Source of the DNA: Azospirillum sp. TSO22-1 | GTDB taxonomy: Bacteria; Pseudomonadota; Alphaproteobacteria; Azospirillales; Azospirillaceae | DNA length: 64,000 bases | Direction of reading: 5' to 3' | Assembly (NCBI RefSeq): GCF_003116015.1 | Contig: NZ_LGQZ01000107.1 | Coordinates: 62,001-126,000, forward strand | Shown: positions 5,518-49,055 of the stretch, piece by piece | How the letters are laid out: each line of letters opens with the position of its first letter | How positions within the stretch are numbered: position 1 is the first letter of the stretch | Translations under genes and position numbers: made by a program | Notes under the pieces: generated by a model | What the model was told of the DNA's origin: nothing | Databases searched by the model: none | The model's input: only the letters and a program-made list of their open reading frames with translations

Positions 5518-5588
5518 CTCGACCCTGTGCCGCCGCCGCCGCCATCGTTCCCCGCGTTCAAGGGCTCGCAGCACAGGAAAGCACAGGC

Positions 5589-7316: not shown

Positions 7317-7331
7317 CCGGAGACGCGCCCC

Positions 7332-7568: not shown

Positions 7569-7575
7569 GCCGGCG

Positions 7576-8525: not shown

Positions 8526-8529
<4 letters not shown>
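7576..8529 (+). CDS. HEAT-repeat protein
   Basis: The protein has 317 residues built almost entirely of roughly 31-residue alpha-helical HEAT (PBS-lyase-type) repeats. About nine repeats are visible, each with a core like DAD..VR..AA..LG or DPAVRREA. The composition is very rich in Ala, Asp, Leu and Arg. Such proteins act as scaffolds or as lyase-like subunits; no catalytic residues can be assigned. It begins 7 bp after the ferredoxin stop and overlaps the next gene by 4 bp (ATGA), so it belongs to the redox operon and may assemble or regulate the flavoprotein/ferredoxin complex. Confidence 0.85.
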
Positions 8530-10029
<1,500 letters not shown>

Positions 10030-27751: not shown

Positions 27752-28633
27752 TCAGATCGAATAGTTGAAGGTGTCGTAGGACAGGTCGCTGAGGATCTGG
27801 TCGAGACGGCGGGCAGCGTCGGCGCGGCCCTCGGTGCTGACCACCTTGGCCGGCACCCCGGCCACCGTGGCGTTCGCCTCCACCGGGCGGAGCACCACCG
27901 AGCCGGCGGCGACGCGGGCGCACGCGCCGATCTCGATGTTGCCGAGGATCTTGGCGCCAGCGCCGATCATGGCGCCCCGCCGCACCTTGGGGTGGCGGTC
28001 GCCGTGCTCCTTGCCGGTGCCGCCCAGCGTGACGTTCTGCAGCAGCGACACCTCGTCCTCGACGACGGCCGTCTCGCCCACCACCAGCCCGGTCGCGTGG
28101 TCCAGGAAGATCCCCCGCCCGAAGCGCGCCGCCGGGTGGATGTCGGTCTGGAACACGTCCGACGAGCGGCTCTGCAGGTACAGAGCAAGGTCCCGCTCAC
28201 CGCTGTCCCACAGCCAGTGCGCCAGCCGCTGCGTCTGGATGGCGTGGAAACCCTTGAAGTAGAGGAACGGCTCGATGAAGCGTTCGCACGCCGGATCGCG
28301 CTCGACCACCGCGATGATGTCGGCGCGCGCGGCGTCGCCGATCGCCGGGTCGGCCCCCAGCCCACGGCGGAAGATCTCCACCAGCAGGCCGGTCGGCACG
28401 GCGTCGTTGCCCAGGCGGACGGCGACGCGGTGGAACACCGCCGCCTCGAACGAGGGCTGGTCGAGGATCGACCCGACGAACAGCGCCCGCAGCGTCGGCG
28501 TCTGCGCCAGCGCCTCGCGCGCCTCGTTGCGCAGGCGCGCCCACAGGGCGTCGGCGATCGCCCGGCTCTGCGAGCGCGCCAGCGCACTCTCGCCGGGGGT
28601 GATGGACAGGCGGCTCAGCGTCGAGCGGTGCAT
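27752..28633 (-). CDS. cysE: serine O-acetyltransferase
   Basis: The protein has 293 residues. The C-terminal half is a left-handed beta-helix of hexapeptide repeats with the family motifs DIHPAARFGRGIFLDHATG and VSLLQNVTLGGTGKEHGDRHPK, including the catalytic histidines and aspartate of CysE. The N-terminal half is alpha-helical. It makes O-acetylserine, the acceptor for sulfide in cysteine synthesis. It is the last gene of the encapsulin operon, 27 bp after the cysteine desulfurase gene. The pairing of acetyltransferase, cysteine desulfurase and encapsulin shell is known from Family 2A encapsulin loci. Confidence 0.93.
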   Translation of the reverse strand: MHRSTLSRLSITPGESALARSQSRAIADALWARLRNEAREALAQTPTLRALFVGSILDQPSFEAAVFHRVAVRLGNDAVPTGLLVEIFRRGLGADPAIGDAARADIIAVVERDPACERFIEPFLYFKGFHAIQTQRLAHWLWDSGERDLALYLQSRSSDVFQTDIHPAARFGRGIFLDHATGLVVGETAVVEDEVSLLQNVTLGGTGKEHGDRHPKVRRGAMIGAGAKILGNIEIGACARVAAGSVVLRPVEANATVAGVPAKVVSTEGRADAARRLDQILSDLSYDTFNYSI

Positions 28634-28660: not shown

Positions 28661-30379
28661 CTACCGGGGAAAGGTCGTCAGGCCGGGCGGCGGGGCGCCG
28701 CTGCGGATCCGCCGCAACGCCGCGGCCAGCGCGTCGACGTCCTCGAACGTGTTGTAGAAGGCCAGCGACGGCCGCACCGTGGCCTCCAGGCCGAAGCGCC
28801 GCAGGATCGGCTGGGCGCAGTGGTGCCCCGAGCGCACCGCGATGCCCTCGCGGTTGAGCGCCTTGCCGACCTCCTCCGGCGCCATCCCGTCGAGCACGAA
28901 GGACAGCACGCCGGCCTTCTCCGCCGCAGTGCCGATCAGGCGCAGCCCGCCGATCTCCCGCAGCAGGCGGGTGCCGTGCTCCAGCAGGGCGTGCTCGTGG
29001 CGGGCGACGTTCTCCATGCCGACGCGGTCCAGGTAGTCGACCGCCGCCCCCAGGCCGACGGCGTCGGCGATGTTGCCGGTGCCCGCCTCGAAGCGCGCCG
29101 GGGCGCCGTGGTACTCGGTCTTCTCGAAGGTGACGTCGCGGATCATGTTGCCGCCGCCCTGCCAGGGCGGCATGGCGTCGAGCACCGCCTTGCGGCCGTA
29201 CAGCACGCCGATGCCGGTCGGCCCGAACATCTTGTGCCCCGACAGCGCGTACCAGTCGGCGCCCAAGTCCTGCACGTCGACCCGCATGTGCGACACCGCC
29301 TGGGCGCCGTCCACCAGCACGTGGGCGCCGTGCCGGCGCGCCATCTCCACCATGGCCTTGGCCGGGGTGACGGTGCCGAGCGCGTTGGACACCTGGGTGA
29401 AGGCGACCAGCCGGGTGCGCGGGTTCAGCAGCCGCTCGTACTCCTCCAGCAGCACTTGGCCGCGGTCGTCCACCGGGACGACGCGCAGGCGCGCTCCGGT
29501 CAGCGCCGCCAGCTGCTGCCACGGCACGATGTTGGCGTGGTGCTCCAGCCAGGTGACGACGATCTCGTCGCCCTCGCGCAGGTTCTTCGGCCCCCAGCTC
29601 TTGGCGACGAGGTTGATCGCCTCGGTGGCGCCGCGCACGAAGACGATCTCGTCCGGCGAGGCGGCGTTGAGGAAGCGCCGCACCTTGTCGCGCGCCGCCT
29701 CGTAGGCGTCGGTGGCGCGCGCCGCCATCTCGTGAGCGGCGCGGTGGATGTTGGAGTTCTCGTGCGCGTAGAAGTGCGCCAGCCGGTCGATCACCGCCTG
29801 CGGCTTCTGTGTGGTGGCGGCGTTGTCCAGCCAGATCAGCGGCCGGCCGTTGACCGTCTCGCCCAGGATCGGGAAATCGCGCCGGTAGAGGTGCGCGTCG
29901 AACGGCGGGTGTGCCACGGTCGCCGCCGGCACCGGCGGCACGGCGGCCCCGGGCCGCGGCGGCCCCGCCCCGTCGAGGACGTAGAGCGGCCCGCCGGCCG
30001 CCGCCGCGGGCGGCAGCGCCGGCCCGGCCGGTAGCCGTGGCGCCAGCAGCGCCACCAGCTCCGCCGTGCCGGGCAGCGTGGCGCCGAGCGACGGCACGCC
30101 GGGCAGCGGCGAGTCCGGAAGCGGCGCGCCGAAGCCGCCGGCCGGCAGCTCGTGCGACGGCATGGAGTGCGATGGCGTGGGGAGGGCTGACGGGGCGAGC
30201 CAGGGCGGCGCGCCGGCCGCGCCGCCCGGCAGCGCCGCGAACAGCTCGTTCGCCAGCCGGGTCAGCGACTGTTCGTCCGTCGGACCACCGGGGAAGGCCG
30301 GCGGTCCGGCGTGGGGCAGACCCGCCGCAGGATGTGGCGGCGCCCCCGTCCGATCAAGCGTAGACATCGCTGTAGGCAT
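28661..30379 (-). CDS. SufS-type cysteine desulfurase with disordered N-terminal encapsulin-loading extension
   Basis: The protein has 572 residues. The C-terminal 410 are a SufS/CsdA-like PLP enzyme: PLP lysine in LSGHKMFGPTGIG and catalytic Cys521 in RSGHHCAQPI. Residues 1 to about 158 are an Ala/Pro/Gly-rich low-complexity region, without helices except short hydrophobic patches such as TRLANELFAALPG and AELVALLAPRLPA. That organisation matches the cargo-loading domain of the cysteine desulfurase (CyD) packed in Family 2A encapsulins. It takes sulfur from cysteine to give persulfide and alanine. The start at 30379 overlaps the encapsulin stop by 26 bp; ATG 30367 is also possible. Confidence 0.93.
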   Translation of the reverse strand: MPTAMSTLDRTGAPPHPAAGLPHAGPPAFPGGPTDEQSLTRLANELFAALPGGAAGAPPWLAPSALPTPSHSMPSHELPAGGFGAPLPDSPLPGVPSLGATLPGTAELVALLAPRLPAGPALPPAAAAGGPLYVLDGAGPPRPGAAVPPVPAATVAHPPFDAHLYRRDFPILGETVNGRPLIWLDNAATTQKPQAVIDRLAHFYAHENSNIHRAAHEMAARATDAYEAARDKVRRFLNAASPDEIVFVRGATEAINLVAKSWGPKNLREGDEIVVTWLEHHANIVPWQQLAALTGARLRVVPVDDRGQVLLEEYERLLNPRTRLVAFTQVSNALGTVTPAKAMVEMARRHGAHVLVDGAQAVSHMRVDVQDLGADWYALSGHKMFGPTGIGVLYGRKAVLDAMPPWQGGGNMIRDVTFEKTEYHGAPARFEAGTGNIADAVGLGAAVDYLDRVGMENVARHEHALLEHGTRLLREIGGLRLIGTAAEKAGVLSFVLDGMAPEEVGKALNREGIAVRSGHHCAQPILRRFGLEATVRPSLAFYNTFEDVDALAAALRRIRSGAPPPGLTTFPR

Positions 30380-31283
30380 GGTACTTGGTGACGTCCACGC
30401 CCTCCAGCACGCCCAGCGCGTCGTCGGTCAGCACCGCCAGCGAGCAGTAGAGCGACACCAGGTAGGACGCGATGGCCTTGTGGTTGATGCCCATGAAGCG
30501 CACCGACAGCCCCAGGCCCTGCTGGCCGGGCAGGTTCGGCTGGTAGAGGCCGACCACGCCCTGGCGGGCCTGGCCGGTGCGCAGCAGCAGGATGTTGCTC
30601 TTGCCGTTCTCGATGCGCACCTTGTCGGAGGGGACCAGCGGCAACCCGCGCCACGTCAGGAACGAGGCGCCGAACATGGTGATGGTGGGCGGCGGCACGC
30701 CGCGCCGGGTGCACTCGCGGCCGAAGGCGGCGATGGCGGCGGGATGTGCCAGGAAGAACGCCGGCTCCTTCCACACGCGGGAGATCAGCTCGTCCAGGTC
30801 GTCGGGAGTCGGCGCGCCGGTGCGCGGTGCGACGCGCATGCCCGGAGCGACGTTGCTAAGCAGGCCGTATTCGGGGTTGTTGATCAGCTCGCTTTCCTGG
30901 CGCTCCTTGATGACCTCGATGGTCAGGCGGAGCTGCTCGGCGATCTGGTCGTGCGGCACGCTGTACAGGTCGGACACCCGGGTGTGGATATCGACCACGG
31001 TGTTGACCGCGCTCAGCATGTATTCGCGCGGGTTCTCGACGTAATCGACGAAGGTCTGCGGCAGGTCGCGCTCGTCGCGGTTCGAGCACTCGACGGCGAC
31101 GGCGCCTTCGTCCTTGACGCGGTTGAGCCGGAAGATGCCGGCTTCGACGGGAGCCCATTGGAGGCAGTGGACCAGCCAGCGCGGCGTGATGCGCCCCATC
31201 TGCGGGGCGGTCTTGGTGGCGTTGGCAAGTTGCCGGGCGGCGATGTCGCCGAGCGCCGTGGGTGTTGCTGTATCGTCGGCCAT
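30354..31283 (-). CDS. Family 2A encapsulin shell protein (SrpI-like)
   Basis: The protein has 309 residues. It resembles the SrpI family (segments RWLVHCLQWAPVEAG, then YSVPHDQIAEQLRLTIEVIKERQESE and NPEYGLLSNVAPG), which is a HK97-fold Family 2A encapsulin known to form sulfur-related compartments. Its cargo is encoded next: a cysteine desulfurase with a long disordered N-terminus. The compartment would hold the desulfurase inside the cytoplasm and may store or buffer sulfur. A serine acetyltransferase gene completes the operon. Start ATG 31283 is preceded by AAGGTG; I see no insertion or extra domain. Confidence 0.9.
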   Translation of the reverse strand: MADDTATPTALGDIAARQLANATKTAPQMGRITPRWLVHCLQWAPVEAGIFRLNRVKDEGAVAVECSNRDERDLPQTFVDYVENPREYMLSAVNTVVDIHTRVSDLYSVPHDQIAEQLRLTIEVIKERQESELINNPEYGLLSNVAPGMRVAPRTGAPTPDDLDELISRVWKEPAFFLAHPAAIAAFGRECTRRGVPPPTITMFGASFLTWRGLPLVPSDKVRIENGKSNILLLRTGQARQGVVGLYQPNLPGQQGLGLSVRFMGINHKAIASYLVSLYCSLAVLTDDALGVLEGVDVTKYHAYSDVYA

Positions 31284-31672
31284 TGGGGAGCACACCTTGT
31301 TGCTGGAGGCGGCGCGCGGGAGGACTGCGCCGCGTCACGGGACGCCCGATCGCGATGCCGGGTGTTCAGGGAAGTGTCGTCGCCGAAGACTTCGGCTTCC
31401 GGATGCCCGCATGATTGGCGCGCCGCCGGTGCGGCGCAACCGCAAACAGCGCAGAGATTTCCGTTTCGTCCGTCACACGAGACAAGTCTCCAAGATATCG
31501 GATCCGGCAGCCCCGCCCGCCCATCTTCTCGACACGAACGTCCGTATACTCGAATTCTCTAGTGCCAATGCATGGTTTTATTGAAAGACGCTGATCCGCA
31601 CACGAAACATCCGCACCACGGTCCTTATCCACCGGTTCCGGATACGCCGTCGGCAGCCGGCGCCGGTTTTCC
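31284..31672. other. intergenic region, 389 bp, upstream of the encapsulin operon
   Basis: It lies between the LysR gene stop and the encapsulin start, both on the minus strand. It holds no gene I can support. An AT-richer stretch at 31540-31620 may carry the encapsulin promoter. The 18-bp element found upstream of transporter four is not present here. Confidence 0.4.
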
Positions 31673-32536
31673 TCAGAGCACCAGCCGCAGCGCCTCGGTC
31701 AGAACGGCGCGCAGGCGGGCCACCGTCGGCGTGCGGCTGGCCGGCGACAGGTGAAGCTCGAGCGCCACGCTGGGCAGGGACGGCAGGGCCAGCCGCGGGT
31801 CGAGCGGCGCCAGCGTGTCCGGCAGCCCGAGCGGCGTGCGGACGGTGACGCCGAGGCCGGCCTCCACCGCCGCCCACAGCCCGGCGAGGCTGGGGCTGGT
31901 GAAGGTGTTCCGCCACGCCCGGCCGCTCTGGTCCAGGCGCGCCGTGCCGTGCCTGCGGAACGGACAGGGCCCGTCCAGCAGGGCGAGCGGCAGCGGGGCC
32001 GCCGGGTCCGGCCGGTAGCCGCGCGGGCCGATCCACACCAGCGGCAGGCGGGCAACCAGCGCCTGGCCGTTCTCCGCCCCGTCGATGTCGCCGAACACCA
32101 GCGCCAGGTCCAGGCCGCCGCGCGCGATGTGGTCGCGCAGGTCGCGCCCGACCTGCGCCTCGAACCGGACCCTGGGGTGGGCGCGGTGGAAAGCGCCCAG
32201 CACGCCGGGCAACCAGCGGTCGGCGAGATCCTCGGGAAAGCCGATGCGCACGGTGCCGTCCATGGCGCCGCCGCGCGCCACCGACAGCGCCTCATCGTTC
32301 AGCGCGATGATCCGCCGGGCGTAGTCGAGGAGCGTGTCGCCGATCTCGGTCAGCGTCACGCCCCGCCCGTTCTTGCGGAACAGCGGAAGCCCGACCTGGT
32401 CCTCCAGCTTCTTCATCTGGAGGCTGATCGCCGACTGGCTGCGGCCAAGCCGCTCCGCCGCCCGCCCGAAGCCGCCCAGCTCGGTGGCGATCACCAGCGC
32501 GCGCAGAACATCCATGTCGAGGTTGGTCGGCGCCAT
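31673..32536 (-). CDS. LysR family transcriptional regulator
   Basis: The protein has 287 residues. Residues about 8-65 form the winged HTH (LDMDVLRALVIATELGGFGRAAERLGRSQSAISLQMKKLE), followed by a periplasmic-binding-protein-like effector domain (DGTVRIGFPEDLADRWLP). It begins 25 bp after the ABC ATPase stop and so may belong to the transporter-five operon. LysR proteins such as CysB and Cbl control sulfur genes, so this one may read a sulfur metabolite; no direct evidence. It lies 389 bp upstream of the encapsulin gene in the same direction. Confidence 0.9.
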   Translation of the reverse strand: MAPTNLDMDVLRALVIATELGGFGRAAERLGRSQSAISLQMKKLEDQVGLPLFRKNGRGVTLTEIGDTLLDYARRIIALNDEALSVARGGAMDGTVRIGFPEDLADRWLPGVLGAFHRAHPRVRFEAQVGRDLRDHIARGGLDLALVFGDIDGAENGQALVARLPLVWIGPRGYRPDPAAPLPLALLDGPCPFRRHGTARLDQSGRAWRNTFTSPSLAGLWAAVEAGLGVTVRTPLGLPDTLAPLDPRLALPSLPSVALELHLSPASRTPTVARLRAVLTEALRLVL

Positions 32537-32561: not shown

Positions 32562-33355
<794 letters not shown>

Positions 33356-33362
<7 letters not shown>

Positions 33363-34354
33363 CGGACCAACCCCTTCTGCCAGGCGAGCAGGCGGTCGCG
33401 CGCCAGGAACAGCAGCAGCACGAGGCCCGAGCAGACCAGCGCCATCACCACCAGCGCCGCGTACATGTTGGCGTAGGCGGCCCAGCCCTGCGCCCACTGC
33501 AGGTACCAGCCCAGGCCCGACTTGACGCCCAGCATCTCGGCGACCACCAGCACCGCGAAGGAGGAGCACAGGCCCATGAACAGGCCGACGAAGACATGCG
33601 GCATCGCCGCCGGGATGGCGACCTTGCGCACCAGGAAGCGCTGGTTGGCGCCCAGCGTGCGGGCGATGTCGTAATACGCGCTGTTCACCGCCGACACCCC
33701 CGACCACGTCAGCACCGCCACCGGCGTGCCGGAGGCGAGCGCGATCAGGAAGACGCTGGCGCTCCAGCTCGACGGGAAGGCGAAGAAGGCGACGGGCAGC
33801 CAGGCGGTCGCCGGCATCGGCCCGATCAGGCGCAGCACCGGGTGCCCCCAGTAGGCCGCGGTCCGCGACCAGCCGAGCGCCACGCCGACCAGGAAGCCGG
33901 TGAACGCCCCCACCAGATAGCCGGTGACCAGCAGGCCCACGGAATTGACCGTGCAGTCGATGAGCCGCGCCCAGTCGTCGATGTACGCCTCCAGCAGCGC
34001 CTGCGGCGGCGCGAAGAAGGGCAGCGGCAGCCACATCAGCTTGGCGGTCAGCGCCTGCCACAGCGCCGCCAGTCCGGCGAGCGCGATCAACCACGGCGCC
34101 GCCGGGCGCAGCCGCGCGACGGCGCCACCGAGGTACGGCCCGGCCACCGCGGCGACGATGAAGGCGGCGCCCAGCACGGCCTGCAGCACCGCCAGCGTGC
34201 CGGTGTGGACCCACTCCTCCAAGTCGGGCCAGAGCAGGGTCAGGGCCGCCGTCGCCTCCCAGGCGACGCCCGCCGCGAGCACCCCCGGCCACAGGGACAG
34301 CGCCTCGAAGAGGACGGCGGGGCGGACCTCACTGCGCGTCGACGCGACACTCAT
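33356..34354 (-). CDS. ABC transporter permease (SsuC-type, with extra N-terminal helices)
   Basis: The protein has 332 residues from ATG at 34354, which follows a GGAGGTGGC site. The N-terminal 100 residues contain three hydrophobic helices ahead of the usual six-helix BPD_transp_1 core, making it longer than the other permeases here (about 265-300). The EAA-like loop ARTLGANQRFLV...IPAAMPHVFVGL is near residues 230-260. It forms transporter five with the ATPase at 32562 and binding protein 34893. Confidence 0.9.
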
Positions 34355-34892
34355 CGCCACCTCCGCGCGACCGGGACGCCGCTGCCGGGAAACCCGGGCA
34401 CGCCGGCATGGGCGGCGGCGGTAACCCACGCCGCCCGCACCCGCCGCCGCCCATCCTCCGACGGTTGCAGCCTCCACGATTGTCGCGCTGGCCCGCTTGG
34501 CGGCCGACCTGTTGGTCGGCCCATTGGTTGGAATGCTTGCATGATCGCCTGTCCCCTTTCCGGTGCAGCCGCGCCTCGGTCAACGCCGCCGAATCAAAGT
34601 CTATTTTAAAACTAGGAAACAGCACATACAACATGTCTGACAAGTTAGAAAAACTCATATAGCAATTTTTTAGTGTCTTATATACCCACCTTCCGATTGT
34701 GGTTATAGCTCTATAAACTTGATTATTGTGTTGAATTAACTTTAAAAACACCAATAAGTCTACTGCTGCAATTGACAAATATCCCCCTCGAAGCCTCCAT
34801 TTTCGCTGTCGCATAGGCGAAACAGCCGAGAACGGCGCTCCCGGACATCGGCGCCGGAGCGAGTTCCACACCCACCGAGAGGAGATCAGACG
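34355..34892. promoter_or_regulatory. divergent intergenic region, 538 bp, transporter five
   Basis: This spacer separates the permease/ATPase operon (minus) from the binding-protein/activase operon (plus). Bases 34590-34800 are strongly AT-rich and contain AGTCTATTTTAAAA (34598-34611), matching 14 bases of the 18-bp element at 27335 and 44701. Another AATAAGTCTACT lies at 34751-34762. No gene is supported in it. It probably holds two promoters and a shared regulator site. Confidence 0.5.
34598..34611 (+). promoter_or_regulatory. AGTCTATTTTAAAA, partial copy of the 18-bp element
   Basis: Fourteen bases are identical to the 3' part of the CAATAGTCTATTTTAAAA element at 27335-27352. It is 244 bp from the permease start and 282 bp from the binding-protein start. 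Confidence 0.45.
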
Positions 34893-36011
34893 ATGGCGGA
34901 TTCCGATCACGATCACAGCCGGAGCCGGCGACGCGGCCCCTCCCGCCGCGCCCTTCTGGAGATGGCTGGCGCGTTCGGGGCCGCCGCGACCCTCGGCAGC
35001 GCGTCCGCCTACGGCCTGACCAATTTCGGCGGCGGCGCGGCCGGCGCCCTCTCGAAGGCCGGCGACGTCTGCCTGGCGGCCTTCCAGGGCAACGCGCCGG
35101 CCCTGTCGGGGCCGCCAGTCAAGGTCCGTTTCGCCTACAACGGCACCGGCATCTGCTCGGCGTCGGTGCCGGTGGCTCTGCACCGCGGCTATTTCAAGAA
35201 GCACAACCTCGACGTCGAGTTCGTGGCGCTGGCCGGCAACACCGACCAGATGCTGCAGGCGCTGGCGACCGAGAAGGCCGAGGTCGGCATCAGCATGCTG
35301 CTGAGCTGGCTGAAGCCGCTGGAAAGCGGCTTCGACGTCAAGCTGACAGCGGGGATCCACGGCGGCTGCGTGCGCCTGCTGGCGAACCCGCAGACCGGCA
35401 TCACCGACATCACCAAGCTGCGCGGCAAGACCATCGGCGTCTCCAGCCTGGCCGGCTCGCCGCGGCACTTCTTCTCGGTGCTGCTGGCCAAGCACGGCAT
35501 CAACCCGGACAGCGAGGTGCACTGGCGCGAGTTCCCGGCCGACCTGCTGGGCACGGCGGTGCAGCGCGGCGAGATCCAGGCGCTGGCAGACAGCGACCCC
35601 ACGGTGTGGCTGACCCGCCAGCGCTCGAACGGCGAGCTGGTGGAGATCTCCTCCAACCTCGTCGACGACTACGCCGCCCTGTCGTGCTGCACGCTGGGCA
35701 TCGCCGGCCCTTACCTGCGCAAGAACCCGGCGGTGGGAGCGGCGCTGACCCGCGCCGTCCTGGAGGCGGGCGCCCATGTGCACGCCAACCCGGACGACGC
35801 GGCGGCGGTCTTCGGTCCCTACACGCCGAAGGTGCCGGTGGCCGACCTGGCCGCCATGCTGCGTTCGCACACGCACGGCCATTCGCCGACCGGCGCCGAC
35901 CTGCGCAACGAGGTGGTGAAGATCGTCGGCGACCTGAAGCAGGCCAACATCGTCAAGCCGACCACCGATCCCGGCCGCTTCGCCGCCAAGGTCGTGGTCG
36001 ACCTGAGCTGA
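34893..36011 (+). CDS. Tat-exported ABC substrate-binding protein (SsuA/TauA-like)
   Basis: The protein has 372 residues. An N-terminal twin-arginine motif (SRRALLEMAG, about residues 17-26) and a hydrophobic core suggest Tat export, unlike the Sec signals of the other four binding proteins. The mature domain has the SsuA/NMT1 signature (VKVRFAYNGTGICSASVPVAL, then LQALATEKAEVGISMLLS). Two CC-containing or Cys positions (GICSAS, SCCTLG) are unusual. It lies 47 bp upstream of the activase gene and is divergent from its permease. Being in line with the activase/HgdB-like genes, it likely brings in their substrate. Confidence 0.88.
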   Translation: MADSDHDHSRSRRRGPSRRALLEMAGAFGAAATLGSASAYGLTNFGGGAAGALSKAGDVCLAAFQGNAPALSGPPVKVRFAYNGTGICSASVPVALHRGYFKKHNLDVEFVALAGNTDQMLQALATEKAEVGISMLLSWLKPLESGFDVKLTAGIHGGCVRLLANPQTGITDITKLRGKTIGVSSLAGSPRHFFSVLLAKHGINPDSEVHWREFPADLLGTAVQRGEIQALADSDPTVWLTRQRSNGELVEISSNLVDDYAALSCCTLGIAGPYLRKNPAVGAALTRAVLEAGAHVHANPDDAAAVFGPYTPKVPVADLAAMLRSHTHGHSPTGADLRNEVVKIVGDLKQANIVKPTTDPGRFAAKVVVDLS

Positions 36012-36058
36012 GCCGCGCCCCGCCCCGCCCTCGTCCCCACTCACGGATTCCCACGCGC

Positions 36059-37102
36059 ATGAAGATCAGCGACATCGTCAAGGCCGACCCGGCCAGGGTC
36101 GTTCCCGCCGCCCCGGTGGTCGGCTTCGATATCGGCTCCCGCGGCTCGAAGGGGGTGCTGGTCACCCCCGACGAGATCCACACCGTCTTCATTCCCACCG
36201 GCCTCTACATGCAGGAGACCGCCGACGAGCTTCTGTCCCTGCTGCTCAAGCGGGCGAAGCTGAAGCGCCACAACCTCGGCTTCATCGTCGGCACCGGCTA
36301 CGGCCGCATCTCGCTGAAGTACGAGGACATCCCCTACCAGGTGGTGACCGAGATCAGCTGCCACGCCATGGGAGCGCACGTCGTCAACCCGGCGACCCGC
36401 ACCATCATCGACATCGGTGGCCAGGATTCGAAGGCGATCAAGGTCGATCCGGCCACCGGCAAGGTGGTCGAGTTCGTCATGAACGACAAATGCGCCGCCG
36501 GCACCGGCCGCTTCCTGGAAAAGGCGGCGAACCTGCTCGGCATCGGCCTGGACGAGCTGGGCGGGGTGGCGCTCCAGGCCAAGGAGCCGGCCCAGGTGTC
36601 GAGCCAGTGCGTCGTCTTCGCCGAATCCGAGGTGGTCAGCCTGCGCGCCCGCGGCGACCGCGTCGGCGACGAGGAGGCGCGCGCCAACATCGCCGCCGGC
36701 ATCCACTACGCCTCGGCGCGGCGGGTCAAGACGCTGCTCGGCCGCGTCGGGCTGGAGCCCGACCTGGTGTTCACCGGCGGCGTGGCCAACAACGCCGGCA
36801 TGTGGCACGCGCTGGAGGACCTCATCGGCTCGCCGTTCGCGCCGAGCCCCGCGGGCTTCGACATGATCTTCGCCGGGGCGCTCGGGGCGGCGGTCTACGC
36901 CGGCCGCCACCACGCGCTCAGCCGCCCGGCCAAGCCGGCCAAGGCCAAGGCGAAGACGACACCCAAGCCGCCGGTCGAGCTGGAGACGGCCAAGATCGAG
37001 ACGATCGTCGCCGAGGCGCCGCGCCTGCCGCACCGCCCGGCCTGCCACACGCCCGGCCGCGCCGAGGCGCCGGCCTGCGGCGTCGCCGGCTTCGCCGACT
37101 GA
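36059..37102 (+). CDS. BadF/BadG/BcrA/BcrD-type ATPase activase (2-hydroxyacyl-CoA dehydratase activator)
   Basis: The protein has 347 residues. The actin-like ASKHA ATPase fold is visible in GFDIGSRGSKGVL (about residues 22-34), IIDIGGQDSKAI (116-127) and FTGGVANNAGM. Two cysteines, Cys145 in NDKCAAGTG and Cys184 in SQCVVFAESE, would bind the [4Fe-4S] cluster shared across the homodimer. Such activases use ATP to push an electron to very low potential onto an HgdB-like partner. The partner genes follow at 37123 and 38403. A proline/lysine-rich tail of about 45 residues with two cysteines (after residue 300) extends beyond the usual length. ATG 36059 is used. Confidence 0.92.
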   Translation: MKISDIVKADPARVVPAAPVVGFDIGSRGSKGVLVTPDEIHTVFIPTGLYMQETADELLSLLLKRAKLKRHNLGFIVGTGYGRISLKYEDIPYQVVTEISCHAMGAHVVNPATRTIIDIGGQDSKAIKVDPATGKVVEFVMNDKCAAGTGRFLEKAANLLGIGLDELGGVALQAKEPAQVSSQCVVFAESEVVSLRARGDRVGDEEARANIAAGIHYASARRVKTLLGRVGLEPDLVFTGGVANNAGMWHALEDLIGSPFAPSPAGFDMIFAGALGAAVYAGRHHALSRPAKPAKAKAKTTPKPPVELETAKIETIVAEAPRLPHRPACHTPGRAEAPACGVAGFAD

Positions 37103-37122
37103 GCCCGAGGGAGGACCCGACC

Positions 37123-38361
37123 ATGGCCACGCACGCCGCCCACCACGCGCCCCGCAAGGCGCCGCCCTCGATCAGTCCCGACCTGATGCCCATCCACGCC
37201 CTGATCGAGGCCGAGCAGGAGGCCTTCATCAAGGAGGAGGACGGGCTGAAGCGGGCGGGCTATTTCTGCTCCTACACGCCGCCGGAGCTGCTGAACGCCG
37301 CCGGGCTGCGCCACGCCCGCCTGTTCAAGGCGGGCACGCCGGCCATCGTCTCGAACGGGGAGCGCTACACCCAGAGCGTCTTCTGCGACTTCTCCAAGAG
37401 CTGCATCGGCGGCTTCGACAAGGACGCAGGCGACCCGTTCTACCTGGCGGTGGACAAGCTCTACAACTTCCACACCTGCGCCTCGATGAAGCGGGCGACC
37501 GAGGTGCTGGACAGCATGGTGCCGACCACCATGCTGAACCTGCCGCGGCTGCGCGGTGAGGAGTCGTCGCGCGCCTTCTTCCGCGACGAGATCGCGCATT
37601 TCCGGGACGACGTCGCCGACCTCGCCGGCCGGCCGGTCACCGAGGACGACGTGCGCGAGCAGATCGTGCTGTTCAACAAGGCGCGCCGCCTCATCCGCAA
37701 GTTCTCCGACCTGCGCAAGCGGCCGAAGCCGCCGCTCTCCGGGCGCGACTTCCTGGAGCTGGTGCGCGGCTTCTACTACCTGAAGCCGGACGCGCTGCTC
37801 GCCGCCTACGAGCCGCTGTACCGCAAGCTCAGCCGCTCGCGCGGCAAGGGCGACGGCCGTCCCCGCCTGATGATCTCGGGCAGCGAGATGGCCGACGGCG
37901 ACCGCCGCCTGGTCGAGCTGATCGAGGAGGACATCGGCGCCCACATCGTGGCCGAGGACCACTGCACCGGCCTGCGCCCGTTCACCTACACGGTGTGCGA
38001 GACCGGCGACCCGTTCCGCGCGCTGGCCGACGGCTACCTCGACCAGGCGCCGTGCGCCCGCATGAAGCCGATCGAGGACCCGCTCGACTTCTCCGGCCAA
38101 CTTGCCCAGGAGTACGCGGTGGACGGGGTGGTCTACGTCTACCTCAAGTTCTGCGCCTGCTACGGCGCCACGCGCAGCGCCTTCATCGGCCGCTTCCAGG
38201 AACTCGGCATCCCGGTGCTGGAGATCTCCAGCGACTACTCGCACAGCGACATCGGCCAGCTCAAGACGCGCGTCGAGGCCTTCATCGAGGTGCTCAACGA
38301 GAAGCGGTTCGACCGCCTGCTGGCGGCGCGCGCCGCCGAGGCCGAAGCAGCCGCCGATTGA
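37123..38361 (+). CDS. HgdB-like / double-cubane-type reductase subunit 1
   Basis: The protein has 412 residues and belongs to the 2-hydroxyacyl-CoA dehydratase / benzoyl-CoA reductase BcrB-BcrC (HGD-D) family. The opening GYFCSYTPPELLNAAG (Cys49) is the family hallmark. Further cysteines at 88, 94, 119, 281, 292, 311, 344 and 346 exceed the three needed for a single [4Fe-4S] cluster. That surplus fits a double-cubane [Fe8S9] cluster site, as described for the DCCP proteins, but it is not proof. It receives electrons from the ATPase activase 20 bp upstream. Acetyl-CoA-type dehydration is not required; DCCPs reduce small molecules. The substrate is unknown. Confidence 0.85.
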   Translation: MATHAAHHAPRKAPPSISPDLMPIHALIEAEQEAFIKEEDGLKRAGYFCSYTPPELLNAAGLRHARLFKAGTPAIVSNGERYTQSVFCDFSKSCIGGFDKDAGDPFYLAVDKLYNFHTCASMKRATEVLDSMVPTTMLNLPRLRGEESSRAFFRDEIAHFRDDVADLAGRPVTEDDVREQIVLFNKARRLIRKFSDLRKRPKPPLSGRDFLELVRGFYYLKPDALLAAYEPLYRKLSRSRGKGDGRPRLMISGSEMADGDRRLVELIEEDIGAHIVAEDHCTGLRPFTYTVCETGDPFRALADGYLDQAPCARMKPIEDPLDFSGQLAQEYAVDGVVYVYLKFCACYGATRSAFIGRFQELGIPVLEISSDYSHSDIGQLKTRVEAFIEVLNEKRFDRLLAARAAEAEAAAD

Positions 38362-38402
38362 CTGCGCGCCACCACACACCAGAGGAAAGGGAACACGACG
38401 CC

Positions 38403-39626
38403 ATGGGCATTGTGCGGACACAGGACAAGCACCTCCTCGACCCCGCCGTCCGGCCGCGGGGCTTCGGGCGGGAGACCTCGGAGGGGCTGCGCATCCTCGA
38501 CGAGCTGGCTGCCGGCTACACCTTCGACGCGCTGGAGAAGCTGGCGGCCGACGGGCAGTCGGTGATCTGGGGCGGGCAGAACTGGGATTCGCCGCTGGTC
38601 TACGCCTGCGACACCATCCCGGTGTCCTTCGAGCAGCTCTGGGCCGAGGAGAGCCGCGCCAGCGAAGCCATCGCCGAGGACCTGTTCCAGGTGCCGTCGG
38701 AGTTCTGCTCCATGGCCAAGGCGATGCTGGGCCGGCTGCACGTCGGCCGCGCCAAGTCGGTCAAGCGCATCCTGCACTTCGGCTCCGGCTGCGAGCCGAT
38801 CCACTCGATCCTCGAGCTGACCAAGCGCGACGGCTACGATGTGCAGACCATCGACACCGTCTCCGCCTTCAAGGCCCAGGACAAGCGCGACCACGCCATC
38901 CGCTTTCTGGTCACGGAACTGGAGCGTATCGCCGTCTGGCTGACCGGCAAGCCGGTGGACCACGACCGCGTGGCCGAGCAGATCCACCTGAAGAACACCG
39001 CGCTGCGCAAGGTGCACCGGGTGCTGGAGCTGCGCTCGCGCCATCCCTTCTACATCGCCGGCGAACAGACCAAGCGGATCTTCGTCGGTTCGCTGCACCA
39101 GTTCGGCAAGCCGCAGCGCTTCATCCAGGCGATGGACCTGCTGATCGAGGAGCTGGAAGCGATCGACGCGCTGGGGCCGGAGCCGCTGACCTACATCCCC
39201 ATCGTGCTGGCCGGCTCGGTCGGCAACGTCAAGCTGTTCGAGGCCATCGAGGAATCGAACGCCGGCATCGTCGGCTGGGTCTATTTCGGCTCGCACCCCT
39301 ATCGCGAGGATGTGCCGCCGCTGGAGGCCCTGGCCCACTTCGTGCTCGACGCGCAGAGCCGCGGCGACCTCGGCGAAGGCGTCGGTTCCTCGGTGGCTTA
39401 CCGCCGCAACCTGGTGGAGGAGGAGGTGCGCAAGACCGGGGCGCGGGGGGTCATCTCCTCCTCGGTCACCGGCTGCCCCTACGCCAGCCTGATGCAGCAG
39501 CTGGAGCGCGACCACTTCAAGAAGGTCGGCATCCCCATCGTCACCCTGGAGACCGACGTGCACAAGGAGCCCCCCACCGAGGAGCAGATCACGCGCGTCA
39601 AGGCCTTCATCGAGATGCTGGCGTAG
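38403..39626 (+). CDS. HgdB-like / 2-hydroxyacyl-CoA dehydratase family subunit 2
   Basis: The protein has 407 residues of the same HGD-D superfamily as the preceding gene but clearly divergent. It has only four clear cysteines: Cys69 (VYACDTIPV), Cys102 (EFCSMAK), Cys130 (SGCEPIH) and Cys358 (TGCPYAS). Three of them can hold a [4Fe-4S] cluster. It probably forms a heterodimer with 37123-38361 in the way HgdA/HgdB or BcrB/BcrC do. The gene is 41 bp downstream and in the same direction, and no thioesterase, CoA-ligase or hydratase genes lie nearby, so the substrate need not be a CoA ester. Confidence 0.85.
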   Translation: MGIVRTQDKHLLDPAVRPRGFGRETSEGLRILDELAAGYTFDALEKLAADGQSVIWGGQNWDSPLVYACDTIPVSFEQLWAEESRASEAIAEDLFQVPSEFCSMAKAMLGRLHVGRAKSVKRILHFGSGCEPIHSILELTKRDGYDVQTIDTVSAFKAQDKRDHAIRFLVTELERIAVWLTGKPVDHDRVAEQIHLKNTALRKVHRVLELRSRHPFYIAGEQTKRIFVGSLHQFGKPQRFIQAMDLLIEELEAIDALGPEPLTYIPIVLAGSVGNVKLFEAIEESNAGIVGWVYFGSHPYREDVPPLEALAHFVLDAQSRGDLGEGVGSSVAYRRNLVEEEVRKTGARGVISSSVTGCPYASLMQQLERDHFKKVGIPIVTLETDVHKEPPTEEQITRVKAFIEMLA

Positions 39627-39645
39627 AGGGCCGCTGCGCCGGCCG

Positions 39646-39683
39646 GCGGGGCGGGTCGGAGGGTGATTCCCCGCCCGCCCCGC
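39646..39683. terminator. GC hairpin after HgdB-like gene 2
   Basis: GCGGGGCGGG (39646-39655) is complementary to CCCGCCCCGC (39674-39683) with an 18-base loop. It lies between 39626 and the modD-like start at 39736. It has no clear U-tract, so it may only attenuate read-through. Confidence 0.3.
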
Positions 39684-39735
39684 TTCGCGTTCTTCCCGAT
39701 CCCCACCGCCCGATCCCCACCGAAAGCTCCCGCCC

Positions 39736-40587
39736 GTGTACCGCATCCCCGACGCCGAGATCGACCGCCTGCTCGGCGACGACGCCCCCTACGGCGACCT
39801 GACCACGCACACGCTGGGCATCGGCGCCGCTGCCGGCAGCATGGTGTTCACCGCCCGCGCTCCGCTCGTCGCCGGCGCCACCGAGGAGGCGGCTCGCATC
39901 GTCGAGCGCGCCGGCGGGCGGATCGACCGGCTGCGCCCCAGCGGCTCCGCCGTCGTGGCTGGCGAGGTGCTGCTGGCGGCGCACGGGACGGCGGCGGCGC
40001 TGCTGGTCTCCTGGAAGGTGGCGCAGACGCTGGTCGAGTACGCCTCGGGCATCGCCACCGCGGCCCGGCGGATCGTCGACGCGGCGCGCGCCGTCAACCC
40101 GGCGGTGATGGTCGCCTGCACCCGCAAGAACTTCCCCGGCACCAAGGCGCTGGCGGTAAGGGCGGTGTTGGCCGGCGGAGCGTCGCTGCACCGGCTCGGC
40201 CTGTCCGAGACCGTGCTGCTGTTTCCCGAGCACCGCGCCTTCCTGCCCGGCGGCTCGCTGGCCCTCGGCGTCGGGCGGCTCAAGGCCGCCAACCCCGAGC
40301 GCACCATCGTGGTCGAGGTCAACACCCTAGCCGAGGCGCTCGCCGCGGCTGAGGCCGGCGCCGATGTGATCCAGTTGGAGAAGTTCGCGCCCGCCGCGGT
40401 GGCGGAGGCGGTGCGCGCCCTGTCCGACGCTCCGGTGAAGGTCGCGGCGGCGGGCGGCGTCAACGCCGGCAACGCCGCCGAATACGCTGCGACCGGCGCC
40501 CACGTGCTGGTGACCTCGGCGCCCTACGCGGCCCCGCCACAGGACGTCAAGGTGGCGATCGGCCCGGAGGGCGCCGCCCTCGGCTGA
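39736..40587 (+). CDS. modD: ModD-like nicotinate-nucleotide pyrophosphorylase family protein
   Basis: The protein has 283 residues from GTG at 39736. It has the quinolinate phosphoribosyltransferase (NadC) fold: GDLTTHTLGIG at the N-terminus, TRKNFPGTKALAVRAVLAGG for phosphoribosyl pyrophosphate binding, and VIQLEKFAP. The opening MYRIPDAEIDRLLGDDAPYGDLTT is the ModD pattern, a NadC paralogue found with molybdenum-related genes. Its true reaction is not established. It lies between HgdB-like genes and the DUF1847 gene, so it may support the metal cluster of that enzyme. It is not needed for NAD synthesis itself if a nadC lies elsewhere. Confidence 0.82.
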   Translation: MYRIPDAEIDRLLGDDAPYGDLTTHTLGIGAAAGSMVFTARAPLVAGATEEAARIVERAGGRIDRLRPSGSAVVAGEVLLAAHGTAAALLVSWKVAQTLVEYASGIATAARRIVDAARAVNPAVMVACTRKNFPGTKALAVRAVLAGGASLHRLGLSETVLLFPEHRAFLPGGSLALGVGRLKAANPERTIVVEVNTLAEALAAAEAGADVIQLEKFAPAAVAEAVRALSDAPVKVAAAGGVNAGNAAEYAATGAHVLVTSAPYAAPPQDVKVAIGPEGAALG

Positions 40588-40731
40588 GGCGGTTCCGGCC
40601 GCCCGCCGGATTTGCCCACTTCATGCTCGTTTTATATTGGCGAAATATCTATAAAATAAGTAGTGATATAGTACCCCCGGTGGGCGCGCCGCCTGTCCGC
40701 GCCCCGGCCTTCCACGAACCCGAGGACCAGA

Positions 40732-41403
40732 ATGTCGGACACCTCCGCCGAGCCGCAGCTCACCTGCTCCGACTGCGCGCAGCTCAACTGCAACCGCCGG
40801 GAAACCCGGTTTCCCACCTTTTGCCTGACCGAAAGCGTCGATCCCGGGCAGCTGGAAAACGCGGTCGACCTCTACCGGGGGGACGGCCTAGACGCCCGCA
40901 TCGCGCGCGCCGCCGCCGAGGTCGAGGGGCTGTACTACGGCAAGCTGACGCGGGTCGAGGAGACCGTCGCCTTCGCCCGCCGCATCGGCGCCCGGAAGAT
41001 CGGCATCGCCAGCTGCGTCGGCCTGATCAACGAGACCAAGGTCTTCGCCCAGGTGCTGAAGCTGGCCGGGCTGGAGCCCTTCACGGTGGCCTGCAAGATC
41101 GGCTCGACCGACAAGAACGAGATCGGCATCCCGGACGAGCTGAAGATCCGCCGCGGCGGCTTCGAGGCGATGTGCAACCCGGCCCTCCAGGCCACGCTGA
41201 TGAACGAGGAGAAGACCGACCTGAACGTCATCGTCGGCCTGTGCGCCGGCCACGATTCGCTGTTCATCCGCCATTCCGAGGCGCCGGTGACGGTGCTGAT
41301 CGTCAAGGACCGCGTGCTCTGCCACAACCCGGTGGCGGCGCTCCACACGGTCAAGTCCTACACCAGCCGCCTGCTCGACAAGGCCCACATCGACAGCCTC
41401 TAG
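40732..41403 (+). CDS. DUF1847 domain, Cys-rich metal-binding protein
   Basis: The protein has 223 residues. The N-terminus has CSDCAQLNC (Cys12, Cys15, Cys20) and Cys31 in FPTFCLTE, a likely zinc or Fe-S site. Further cysteines sit in IASCVGLI, EAMCNPALQ, VGLCAGHDSLF and VLCHNPV. The DUF1847 family is annotated as a metal-binding protein, and I do not know a function. Its AT-rich upstream region (40600-40731) suggests its own promoter, including TTTATATTGG and TATCTATAAAATAAG. Its stop TAG overlaps that of the convergent permease on a CTAG. It likely works with the HgdB-like system. Confidence 0.8.
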   Translation: MSDTSAEPQLTCSDCAQLNCNRRETRFPTFCLTESVDPGQLENAVDLYRGDGLDARIARAAAEVEGLYYGKLTRVEETVAFARRIGARKIGIASCVGLINETKVFAQVLKLAGLEPFTVACKIGSTDKNEIGIPDELKIRRGGFEAMCNPALQATLMNEEKTDLNVIVGLCAGHDSLFIRHSEAPVTVLIVKDRVLCHNPVAALHTVKSYTSRLLDKAHIDSL

Positions 41404-44788: not shown

Positions 44789-45409
44789 ATGGCCACCCGC
44801 GACGTCCCGCTCCCGACCGCCGAATCCGCAACCGCGCGCACCTGTGCCCGCGCCGTCGATGAGGCGCTGGGCGCCGCCAGGTCGGCCCTTGCCGGGCGAG
44901 TCGACCGGGACTCGCTGGACGAGGCCCTCGGCGCGCTGCGGGCGCTCGCCGCCAGGACGGAGCTGTGGCGGCCCGACGACTTCCCGGTGCCGGACGACGG
45001 CGGCCTGCAGGCCCGCTACCTGATCCGCGAGGACGCCGACCGCGGCTTCGCGCTCTACCTGAACGTCATGCTGCCGGGGAAGCACACCGGGGCGCACAAC
45101 CACACCACCTGGGCCTGCATCGCCGCCGTCGAGGGGGTCGAGCACAACCATCTCTACCGCCGCACCGACGACGGCAGCCGCGAGGGTTTCGCCACGCTGG
45201 AGCTGGCGGAGACTCGGGCCATCGGGCCGGGAAACGGGATCGCCCTGCTGCCCGACGATATCCACGCGGTGGAGATCCGCGGCGAGGCGCCGATCCGCCA
45301 CCTCCACCTCTACGGCCGCGCGCTGGAGACGCTGACGGAGCGCTTGCAATTCGACCTCGCGGCCGGCACCTGTGGGCGCAAGCCGATCGGTGTCGAGACC
45401 CGCCGCTGA
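44789..45409 (+). CDS. cysteine dioxygenase-type thiol dioxygenase
   Basis: The protein has 206 residues with a cupin core. Iron ligands are His103 and His105 in [16 protein letters not shown] and His159 in DDIHAVEI. It converts L-cysteine to cysteine sulfinate, or in some bacteria 3-mercaptopropionate to its sulfinate; the sequence alone does not separate these. I use ATG 44789. The rhodanese gene follows 18 bp downstream, and a MetC-like gene ends the operon. It is divergent from the AapJ-like importer, supporting uptake followed by oxidation of a sulfur amino acid. Confidence 0.88.
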
Positions 45410-48250: not shown

Positions 48251-48323
48251 AAATGAATTGATAATAATGTGCCCCCAGACATAAAACTTCCGTTCGATAC
48301 GGACGCGCTGGTGGCCGGACAGC

Positions 48324-48440
48324 GGGGGCGGAGGGTTCCTCGGGCGCCGTCTGGTCCGGGCGCTGCTGGAGCGCGGCACGCTAACCGACGCGGCCGGGCG
48401 GGTGCGGGACATCTCCGCCCTGGTGGTGCTCGCCCGTTCC
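48324..48440 (+). pseudogene. fragment of an NAD-dependent epimerase/dehydratase (DenD-like)
   Basis: The frame here reads GGGGFLGRRLVRALLERG and then TLTDAAGRVRDISALVVLA, which is the nucleotide-binding start of a short-chain epimerase/dehydratase resembling D-erythronate dehydrogenase. It has no start codon in a sensible place and is cut off near 48450, where ISL3 transposase sequence begins. It is a short remnant from an insertion or recombination event. Confidence 0.5.
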
Positions 48441-48451
48441 GGCACGCAAAA

Positions 48452-49055
48452 GATCGTTACTGGCGCACGCTCGCCGACCTGCCTTGGCAGGGGCGCCCGA
48501 TCGTTCTGCGGGTTGAGGTTCGCCGCTTCCGCTGCCGGCACTGCGGACCGCGCATCTTTGCCGAGCGCCTGCCCGAGATTGCCCGCACGGAGCGGCGGAC
48601 GGGGCGGCTGGCGTTGGCTCAAGCCCAGATCGGCTTGATGCTGGGCGGTGAACCGGGTGTGCGGTTGGCGTCGAAGCTGGCCATGCCGGTGAGCGGCGAT
48701 ACCGTCCTGCGCCTCATCCGCAAACTGCCGCTACCACCGTGCCGGCCTCCGCGGGCAATCGGTGTCGACGACTGGGCATGGTGCCGCAGCCGGCGCTATG
48801 GAACCATCGTGTGCGACCTGGAGCGCGGCCGGGTGATCGACCTCCTGCCGGACCGCTCCGCCGCTCCTCTGCGGGCTTGGCTGAAGCGGCACCCGACCGT
48901 CACGCTGGTCAGCCGTGATCGCTCCGGCCCCTATGCCGAAGCGTCCGCACCGGCGCACCGGGCGCGTTCAGGGGGCGGATCAGCTCATCAAGCGGCAGAT
49001 GTTCGGCCGTGCCAAGTTCGATCTGCTCCGTCAGCGCGTCTTATGCACCGCTTGA
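48452..49055 (+). pseudogene. decayed ISL3 family transposase
   Basis: From about 48452 the frame reads RYWRTLADLPWQGRPIVLRV, RRFRCRHCGPRIFAERLPEI and VDDWAWCRSRRYGTIVCDLE, characteristic of ISL3 transposases. About 60 N-terminal residues are missing and replaced by the DenD-like fragment. After VTLVSRDRSGPYAEAS the catalytic middle is gone, and a frame change leads to the C-terminal piece DQLIKRQMFGRAKFDLLRQR, with stop at 49053-49055. So the gene has lost its start and an internal segment and is not functional. Confidence 0.75.

Follow-up and report, generated by a model that had tools for sequence, protein, structure and literature searches.

A candidate ATP-driven HgdB-type reductase with its own importer, recurrently linked to sulfur genes, in Azospirillum sp. 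TSO22-1

What does an ATP-driven reductase of the HgdB kind act on when its genes lie beside those of an importer, and does its chemistry pass through coenzyme A (CoA)? The question is raised by a gene cluster in a 64,000-nucleotide stretch of Azospirillum sp. TSO22-1 (contig NZ_LGQZ01000107.1, positions 62,001 to 126,000), here called the window, whose own numbering is used throughout. A sequence-only reading of the window had proposed a reductase with a dedicated transporter, probably acting on a sulfur-containing molecule. We identified an activase and two HgdB-like subunits with the ligand pattern of a double-cubane/[4Fe-4S] reductase, whose order is kept in related genomes and whose loci often adjoin sulfur genes. 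We propose an ATP-driven, CoA-free reductase that would free sulfur from an imported organosulfur compound without oxygen, and regard this proposal as close to an even call. No description of this system was found among the matches listed in the open-licence PMC literature.

Gene content and order of the cluster

The cluster comprises the following genes (G561 and G806 are related genomes introduced below; ABC, ATP-binding cassette).

32562..33362, minus strand: ABC transporter ATPase, SsuB/TauB-like (71% identity to the G561 cluster ATPase, 68% to that of G806)
33356..34354 (or 33356..34477), minus strand: ABC permease, BPD_transp_1, NtrB/TauC/SsuC-like (PF00528, 62.6 bits)
34893..36011, plus strand: periplasmic substrate-binding protein, NMT1/SsuA-type, with a twin-arginine (Tat)-like signal (PF09084, 65.3 bits)
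36059..37102, plus strand: ASKHA-type ATP-dependent activase, predicted electron pump (PF01869, 187.8 bits; TIGR00241, 211.9)
37123..38361, plus strand: HgdB1, predicted double-cubane [8Fe-9S] electron-storage subunit (PF06050, 296 bits)
38403..39626, plus strand: HgdB2, predicted catalytic subunit with a site-differentiated [4Fe-4S] cluster (PF06050, 126 bits)
39736..40587, plus strand: ModD, NadC-type phosphoribosyltransferase (TIGR01334, 267.7 bits, cut-off 178.85)
40732..41403, plus strand: DUF1847 protein with nine cysteines (PF08901, 209 bits, cut-off 25)

The genes from the binding protein through DUF1847 form one plus-strand run with intergenic gaps of 47, 20, 41, 109 and 144 bases, and the permease and ATPase genes lie divergently upstream. 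Every gene that the sequence-only reading had named (transporter, activase, two HgdB, ModD, DUF1847) is present and agrees with its family model, and the Tat-type export that it had assigned to the binding protein fits a twin-arginine-like SRRALL start, as judged by eye. The activase scores well above the TIGR00241 cut-off of 125.4 bits, which places it in that family, and has Cys145 and Cys184 where they had been reported; we take these two residues to be the cluster ligands. The count of nine cysteines in HgdB1 was likewise correct, and HgdB2 has four. The top NCBIfam models for the permease were NtrB, SaoP, TauC and SsuC, each below its cut-off, and the identity of this protein was 61% in G561 and 67% in G806.

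Ligand pattern, fold and phylogeny of the reductase subunits

The best PDB matches of HgdB1 were DCCP structures (6eno/7yyl, E ~2e-42), ahead of BzdN, MbdN and HadC, and HgdB2 is far more divergent (best single-sequence PDB match at E 1.5e-4). In BzdNO, a Bzd-type class I benzoyl-CoA reductase (BCR), Cys36/73/100/263/293/327 of BzdN hold the double cubane and Cys95/128/380 of BzdO hold the catalytic [4Fe-4S] cluster (PMC11971306). We compared these positions in a MAFFT alignment of 35 rows, in which the reference rows reproduced the published cysteine numbers. All 6 double-cubane columns of BzdN are cysteine in 11/11 aligned HgdB1 proteins (Cys49, 88, 119, 281, 311 and 344 in the window copy). 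All 13 HgdB2 proteins have cysteine in the three [4Fe-4S] columns of BzdO (Cys102, 130 and 358 in the window copy), and the other three double-cubane columns are lost in 13/13. Built from 8 sequences, an AlphaFold2 model of HgdB2 (pLDDT 81.3, pTM 0.83) gave 20 Foldseek matches at E <=0.001, all of them HAD, DCCP, MbdON or BzdNO chains, and VIA-align gave Z of 28.6-32.7 to HAD, DCCP, BzdNO and MbdON entries, with the next entry at 9.4. Because of the ligand columns and the fold of this model, we predict that HgdB1 and HgdB2 very probably form a heterodimer with the cluster layout of BzdNO (double cubane plus [4Fe-4S]), for which the ligand pattern predicts twelve Fe per dimer.

Family scores and ligand columns thus support the earlier claim of an activase-driven reductase with a double-cubane subunit. 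The DCCP-like architecture that had also been suggested holds for HgdB1, with its predicted double cubane and its activase partner, but not for HgdB2, whose three-cysteine [4Fe-4S] site points to a BzdNO layout rather than to homodimeric DCCP. Both subunits score under the cut-off of the DCCP family NF040772 (243.8 bits for HgdB1 and 54.5 for HgdB2, cut-off 350) and far under that of the HAD family NF052456 (67.8 and 29.2, cut-off 700), and the bzdN equivalog gave 102 bits against a cut-off of 453.8. In the part of the window genes that was scanned, no NifH/NifD/NifK-type subunits were found in the system, whose reductase subunits are HgdB-type.

In a tree of 34 rows (LG+C20, with the partial BzdO row left out), HgdB1 and its fused counterpart HgdB1' (described below) grouped in a single clade (100/100) that excludes DCCP and BCR/HAD, and HgdB2 with HgdB2' formed a second, separate clade (100/100). 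As the tree has long branches and the program cautioned that some joins may be false, we draw from it only the claim that HgdB1 and HgdB2, as placed by their sequences, are not inside any characterised group. This placement agrees with the earlier judgement that classical CoA-ester dehydratases are unlikely.

The shared fold and cluster layout of BzdNO nonetheless raise the possibility of a HAD/BCR-like enzyme, either a dehydratase of CoA esters or an aryl-CoA reductase, served by a CoA ligase encoded elsewhere in the genome or farther along the region. Such an enzyme is not what the tree position outside HAD and BCR or the scores far under the equivalog cut-offs would suggest. The column of His131, the BzdO acid/base residue beside the [4Fe-4S] water, which is Ile, Val or Leu in 13/13 HgdB2 proteins, points the same way, yet this loss says little about CoA use because MbdO and the BcrB-like subunit of the window's own genome also lack the histidine (Phe in both). 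That genome further contains, on contig 55 (L002, L003), a pair of genes resembling benzoyl-CoA reductase, preceded by what looks by eye like a crotonase gene and followed by an activase-like match; a resident set of this kind adds to the case for CoA esters, to which we return with the neighbouring genes.

Relatives and conservation of the neighbourhood

A scan of genome contigs gave 7 loci, in an Acetobacteraceae metagenome-assembled genome (MAG; G462, three contigs), in the Rhodopila MAGs G463, G464 and G466, and in Rhodopseudomonas rhenobacensis DSM 12706 (G465). Whole-genome searches added G561, from the family of R. rhenobacensis, and G806, from the family of G463, giving eight carrier genomes from three families with the window's own included. 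Carriers are rare: 1/385 in the class, 1/82 in the window's family and 1/398 in the phylum (each time the window's own genome), 2/198 in the family of G465 and 3/299 in the family of G463. In viral contigs, neither HgdB2 nor DUF1847 had relatives, and a plasmid search gave one HgdB2 relative, in Azoarcus.

The cluster is not a chance assembly, since the order activase-HgdB1-HgdB2 is kept in 7/7 complete related clusters outside the window (L005, L006, L007, L011, L048, L047 and L061/L062), with identities of 77-79%, 69-76% and 66-70%, respectively. Of the neighbourhood named in the sequence-only reading, this trio is thus fully conserved in the related clusters and the rest only in part. An orthologous binding protein (68-70% identity) lies within the stretch read in 4/7 related clusters (G462, G465, G561 and G806), the permease and ATPase (61-71%) are adjacent in 2/7 (G561 and G806), ModD is present in 2/7 (G462 and G806; a partial copy at an eighth locus is ended by the contig edge), and DUF1847 is adjacent in 0/7, that is, only in the window.

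Lone HgdB2 copies without an adjacent HgdB1 also occur, one on contig C280 of G462, beside ssuACB, and one at 4.237 Mb in G806. It is possible that they are exchangeable catalytic subunits.

L064 12983-14200 and L063 8731-9948: lone HgdB2 copies, one of them beside ssuACB

Sulfur genes at the HgdB2 loci

Clear sulfur genes lie close by at 6/11 main-type HgdB2 loci. In the window they are an encapsulin of family 2A, its cysteine desulfurase and CysE, listed here with the adjoining regulator, and, downstream, a rhodanese and a cystathionine beta-lyase.

27752-28633, minus strand: CysE (TIGR01172, 221.2 bits, cut-off 210.65)
28661-30379, minus strand: encapsulated cysteine desulfurase (NF041166, 857.2 bits, cut-off 800)
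30354-31295, minus strand: family 2A encapsulin (NF041162, 521.9 bits, cut-off 380)
31673-32536: LysR regulator, next to the encapsulin block

In G561, the encapsulin and desulfurase genes begin 515 bases past HgdB2. Next door to the R. rhenobacensis cluster are MarD (E 5e-201) and MarK (E 6e-197), both matched to chains of 9FMG/9D9U, and two O-acetylhomoserine sulfhydrylase-like genes that score below the cut-off; 9FMG is the MarDK2H2 structure (PMC12552129). The G806 locus has a MarD (E 2e-227 to 9FMG), MarK-like and NifH-like proteins, a sulfhydrylase-like gene and an SsuD over its cut-off. For these MarD-like proteins, the comparison covered solved chains. Among the contigs of G462, the lone HgdB2 of C280 adjoins an ssuACB set whose SsuA is over the cut-off, C7 has a CysK over its cut-off and a fragment of a pyridoxal phosphate (PLP) enzyme of Cys/Met metabolism, and C88, additional to the 11 main-type loci, has an HgdB2' copy beside SsuD and ssuCB. 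A reading frame at 44789-45409 of the window, called a cysteine dioxygenase by eye, was not confirmed by NCBIfam and Pfam and is left unused.

A sulfur-starvation encapsulin accompanies the system

SrpI-type (2A) encapsulin was found in 8/8 HgdB genomes, each time with a cysteine desulfurase gene beside it, vs. 1/72 further genomes drawn from the class (G001 to G072, many of them small) and 0/17 of the controls of at least 4.0 Mb. The association is significant by Fisher's test with genomes taken as independent (p = 3e-10), against the 17 large controls (p = 9e-7) and with the three families as units (p = 6e-5). The protein named 'major membrane protein I' in Rhodobacter capsulatus is, judging by its name, presumably the same encapsulin. 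Synechococcus elongatus PCC 7942 responds to sulfate starvation by upregulating a compartment built from SrpI and its desulfurase (PMC8049743). During growth of R. capsulatus on isethionate, isrBHDK, ssuCAB, sufS2, 'major membrane protein I', serine O-acetyltransferase-2 and rhodanese are upregulated >1000-fold and tauABC is induced 490- to 930-fold (PMC11423573). A similar set, by annotation, surrounds the HgdB genes in the window, with no isrBHDK found among the genes scanned. The early guess of a sulfur-containing substrate thereby gains support from the encapsulin profile and from the sulfur neighbours, the context from which we infer the substrate.

The encapsulin could also be read in another way, namely that the reductase works outside sulfur metabolism and that the encapsulin and desulfurase supply sulfur for its large Fe-S clusters. 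In its favour are a desulfurase block beside the cluster in two lineages, the presence of such a block in every one of the eight genomes, and the predicted twelve Fe per dimer; the Mar, ssuACB, SsuD and CysK neighbours would, however, be left without explanation, and Escherichia coli and Methanocaldococcus jannaschii have HgdB-family genes without this encapsulin. We consider this explanation improbable.

ModD, DUF1847 and alternative substrates

Directly after HgdB2, ModD is found at four loci in three genomes (the window, G462 with C392 and a partial copy on C7, and G806); in R. rhenobacensis and the Rhodopila MAGs it is located elsewhere. The TRK...PG and HR motifs known from solved quinolinate phosphoribosyltransferases (QRPTases) are retained in the protein. 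The HgdB-adjacent copies form no clade of their own, and ModD was dropped as a dedicated partner. DUF1847, the neighbour only in the window, was likewise dropped as a core part. A copy of DUF1847 is present somewhere in 6/6 HgdB genomes tested (G561 and G806 were left out) vs. 6/288 other genomes of the class, and at three of the six DUF1847 loci of other class genomes, those for which genes were called (L075, L077 and L078), there was no match to HgdB genes. No solved relative of DUF1847 was found by sequence up to E 10, and its single-sequence model was uninformative (pLDDT 36.1).

ModD leads to two further alternatives. The first is a double-cubane reductase that acts on some other molecule, either small or heterocyclic (such as an N-heterocycle that ModD makes reducible by phosphoribosylation), and that happens to lie in a nutrient-stress island. 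NMT1-type binding proteins bind many ligands, and the recurrent ModD after HgdB2 would fit this explanation. DCCPs, moreover, reduce acetylene, hydrazine and azide and have no known physiological role (PMC11971306). Set against it are the different sulfur systems that recur beside the loci in several genomes, the encapsulin profile, the lack of a clade of HgdB2-adjacent ModD copies, and the placement of ModD away from the cluster in R. rhenobacensis and the Rhodopila MAGs; we hold this explanation to be rather unlikely.

The second is a thio-nucleobase desulfidase, in which, by analogy with TudS, ModD would make the nucleotide of an imported thio-heterocycle and HgdB1/HgdB2 would strip its sulfur, as TudS does with 4-thio-UMP. 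The sulfur context and the QRPTase motifs of ModD speak for it, but TudS is not known to need ATP-driven electrons, ModD is adjacent in only 2/7 related clusters, and nothing ties the importer to nucleobases. TudS does belong to the same superfamily, as a distant relative (PMC11971306). We consider such an activity very unlikely.

Evidence against the proposed CoA-free, sulfur-related role

Besides the patchy adjacency of permease, ATPase and DUF1847, several results weigh against the proposed CoA-free release of sulfur. First, the binding protein scores 47.4 bits with the SsuA family TIGR01728, under the cut-off of 163.5, so that a sulfonate ligand is not established for it; the binding protein beside the lone HgdB2 in G462 passes this cut-off (202.6 bits). 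Second, the sulfur link does not extend to all loci. At the Rhodopila loci L007 and L011 there is only an oxidoreductase set resembling PhsA, located immediately upstream of the activase and scoring far under the cut-offs, and no sulfur genes were recognised close by at 3/11 main-type loci (L005, L006 and L063). In G463, the genome of L006, a histidine-specific methyltransferase and a gene with an FGE-sulfatase domain lie ~12 kb away (L067), a pair that, as we take it, resembles ergothioneine synthesis genes.

Third, the encapsulin counts are not independent, as the eight carrier genomes represent three families. The encapsulin search also gave no match in the named S. elongatus control, a species in which SrpI has been described, so absences may be over-counted; SrpI is plasmid-borne in S. 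elongatus. R. capsulatus mutants in sufS2, 'major membrane protein I' or rhodanese were still able to grow on isethionate (PMC11423573), and we therefore read this block as a regulon marker that is dispensable for the reaction. Fourth, genes of the PAPS-reductase family are present in 8/8 HgdB genomes. Because of these genes, the system would be an extra sulfur source and not a substitute for sulfate assimilation, and a missing sulfate assimilation found no support as the reason for its presence.

Finally, CoA-related genes are not entirely absent. The earlier statement that no CoA ligase, hydratase or thioesterase genes accompany the cluster holds for its immediate surroundings (by eye, no CoA ligase or thioesterase was recognised in 25-48 kb of the window) but not for the window at large, in which an enoyl-CoA hydratase (over the PRK08139 cut-off) lies at 56942-57727, ~15 kb off and past transposase remains. 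A CoA-based pathway near relatives had been named as a point that would speak against the reading, and the check gave a mixed answer. In R. rhenobacensis, genes for a PaaK-like ligase and for an enoyl-CoA hydratase lie beyond MarDK, ~7 kb from HgdB2, and contig C7 of G462 has a PaaK-like ligase ~17 kb from HgdB2; both ligases score below the PaaK cut-offs, and no ligase was recognised at the remaining related clusters read. In Azoarcus sp. KH32C, a sister trio (activase, activase-HgdB1 fusion and HgdB2') lies among acyl-CoA genes (AMP-binding, thiolase and acyl-CoA dehydrogenase); on the other side, ~15 kb off, is a 'putative sulfate exporter'. Because CoA-ligase-like genes occur near two relatives, we slightly lowered our estimate for the release of sulfur and raised that for a CoA-ester enzyme, which we still judge unlikely.

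Proposed mechanism

We return to the preferred reading, a CoA-free reductase that releases sulfur. The SsuA/TauA-like ABC transporter would import an organosulfur compound, for which a sulfonate or a molecule akin to one is the likeliest candidate. The activase would hydrolyse ATP and drive low-potential electrons into the predicted double cubane of HgdB1, which would hand them to the predicted [4Fe-4S] cluster of HgdB2, whose fourth iron would be free for substrate binding and reduction. At HgdB2 a C-S (or S-O) bond of the substrate, probably C-S, would be cleaved, and the sulfite or sulfide given off would enter cysteine synthesis and the store formed by encapsulin and cysteine desulfurase. 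HgdB2 as the substrate-specific part would fit the copies that lack an adjacent HgdB1. A role of the system in sulfur acquisition is probable, and reductive C-S cleavage of an imported organosulfur compound is offered tentatively. It is more doubtful that we are dealing with a third, evolutionarily separate ATP-driven C-S reductase of oxygen-free sulfur assimilation next to Mar and Isr, with exchangeable HgdB2 subunits fed by one HgdB1/activase pair.

Comparison with known systems

The window system resembles BzdNO in its double-cubane and [4Fe-4S] subunits (by ligand pattern), its ATP-dependent activase and its fold. It differs from BzdNO in forming its own clades, in having one activase gene rather than two, in the lack of His131 in HgdB2, in the lack of an adjacent CoA ligase in the window, and in its own ABC importer and sulfur neighbours. 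With DCCP/YjiM (NF040772) it shares the six double-cubane ligands of HgdB1, which is ~33% identical to E. coli YjiM, and the activase partner. DCCP is homodimeric, and both of its subunits carry a double cubane (PMC11971306), whereas HgdB2 has, by ligand pattern, a [4Fe-4S] site only and HgdB1 falls short of the family cut-off (243.8 vs. 350). HadBC, an (R)-2-hydroxyisocaproyl-CoA dehydratase, has the same fold (VIA-align Z of 32.7 between the HgdB2 model and HadC) and a three-cysteine [4Fe-4S] site, but it dehydrates CoA esters, HadC lacks two of the six double-cubane columns, and the HgdB scores are far under the NF052456 cut-off. TudS, a single-domain [4Fe-5S] enzyme acting on 4-thio-UMP, offers a mechanistic analogy only (PMC11971306).

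The closest functional parallels would come from an unrelated protein family. IsrBHDK, the isethionate reductase of R. capsulatus, is a low-potential, presumably ATP-dependent reductase encoded in a sulfonate/sulfate-starvation locus, surrounded by ABC sulfonate transporters, SufS2, 'major membrane protein I', a serine acetyltransferase and a rhodanese (PMC11423573). By this analogy the window system perhaps shares its kind of job, although IsrBHDK is nitrogenase-like, has a radical SAM partner (SAM, S-adenosylmethionine) and is unrelated to HgdB. The methylthio-alkane reductase MarBHDK performs ATP-driven C-S cleavage for sulfur scavenging, which is known for Mar and proposed here, and its genes adjoin the HgdB cluster in R. 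rhenobacensis and G806; its nitrogenase fold and clusters again set it apart from the HgdB family. The window system belongs among the HgdB/DCCP/BCR reductases, and there is a realistic chance that it represents a new oxygen-free route of sulfur acquisition.

If this is true, the HgdB family would gain a natural substrate from a CoA-free member that has its own importer, and it would become clear how the family escapes CoA activation, named in the literature as what currently limits enzymatic Birch-type reduction. Should an organosulfur compound be the substrate, ATP-driven sulfur release would have evolved on two unrelated scaffolds, those of nitrogenase and HgdB. The hypothesis is directly testable in the eight carrier genomes identified, among them the strain R. 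rhenobacensis DSM 12706; a sulfur-source growth test exists for Isr (PMC11423573).

Additional observations

Beyond the sulfur genes of the window are an ISL3-type transposase (48269-49168, Pfam) and a second transposase-like open reading frame (54312-54662, by eye), and the sulfur island may be mobile or recently rearranged. At 3361-10029, a molybdopterin oxidoreductase, a fumarate-reductase/AprA-like flavoprotein and a small dicluster ferredoxin lie beside NMT1-type ABC transporters (Pfam; the AprA/AprB likeness was judged by eye), which makes another sulfur or small-molecule module possible. Two unannotated phage records from human faeces (MT836106.1 and MT837370.1, 'Bacteriophage sp.') contain HgdB-family proteins that are 25.6% and 26.8% identical to HgdB1, and they are possibly misassigned bacterial DNA.

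Three gene types recur around the clusters of the relatives. In a sister system, often in tandem with the main one, the activase is fused to HgdB1' and HgdB2' is adjacent, mostly with a second activase. A YncE-like, probably exported protein of beta-propeller type (a likeness judged partly by eye) is repeatedly found near binding proteins or HgdB clusters; its L008 copy gave weak propeller matches and its L046 copy no Pfam match. Class I SAM methyltransferases of one family, with mutual identities of 42-84%, also recur near the cluster.

Activase-HgdB1' sister system: L006 11074-13017; L046 13788-15797; L060 10997-13006; L061 12759-14771; L074 15851-17908
YncE-like protein: L008 3590-4699; L046 10275-11390; L061 15446-16537; L066 716-1873
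SAM methyltransferase: L062 5788-6621; L006 3182-3991; L007 182-1021; L046 8078-8881

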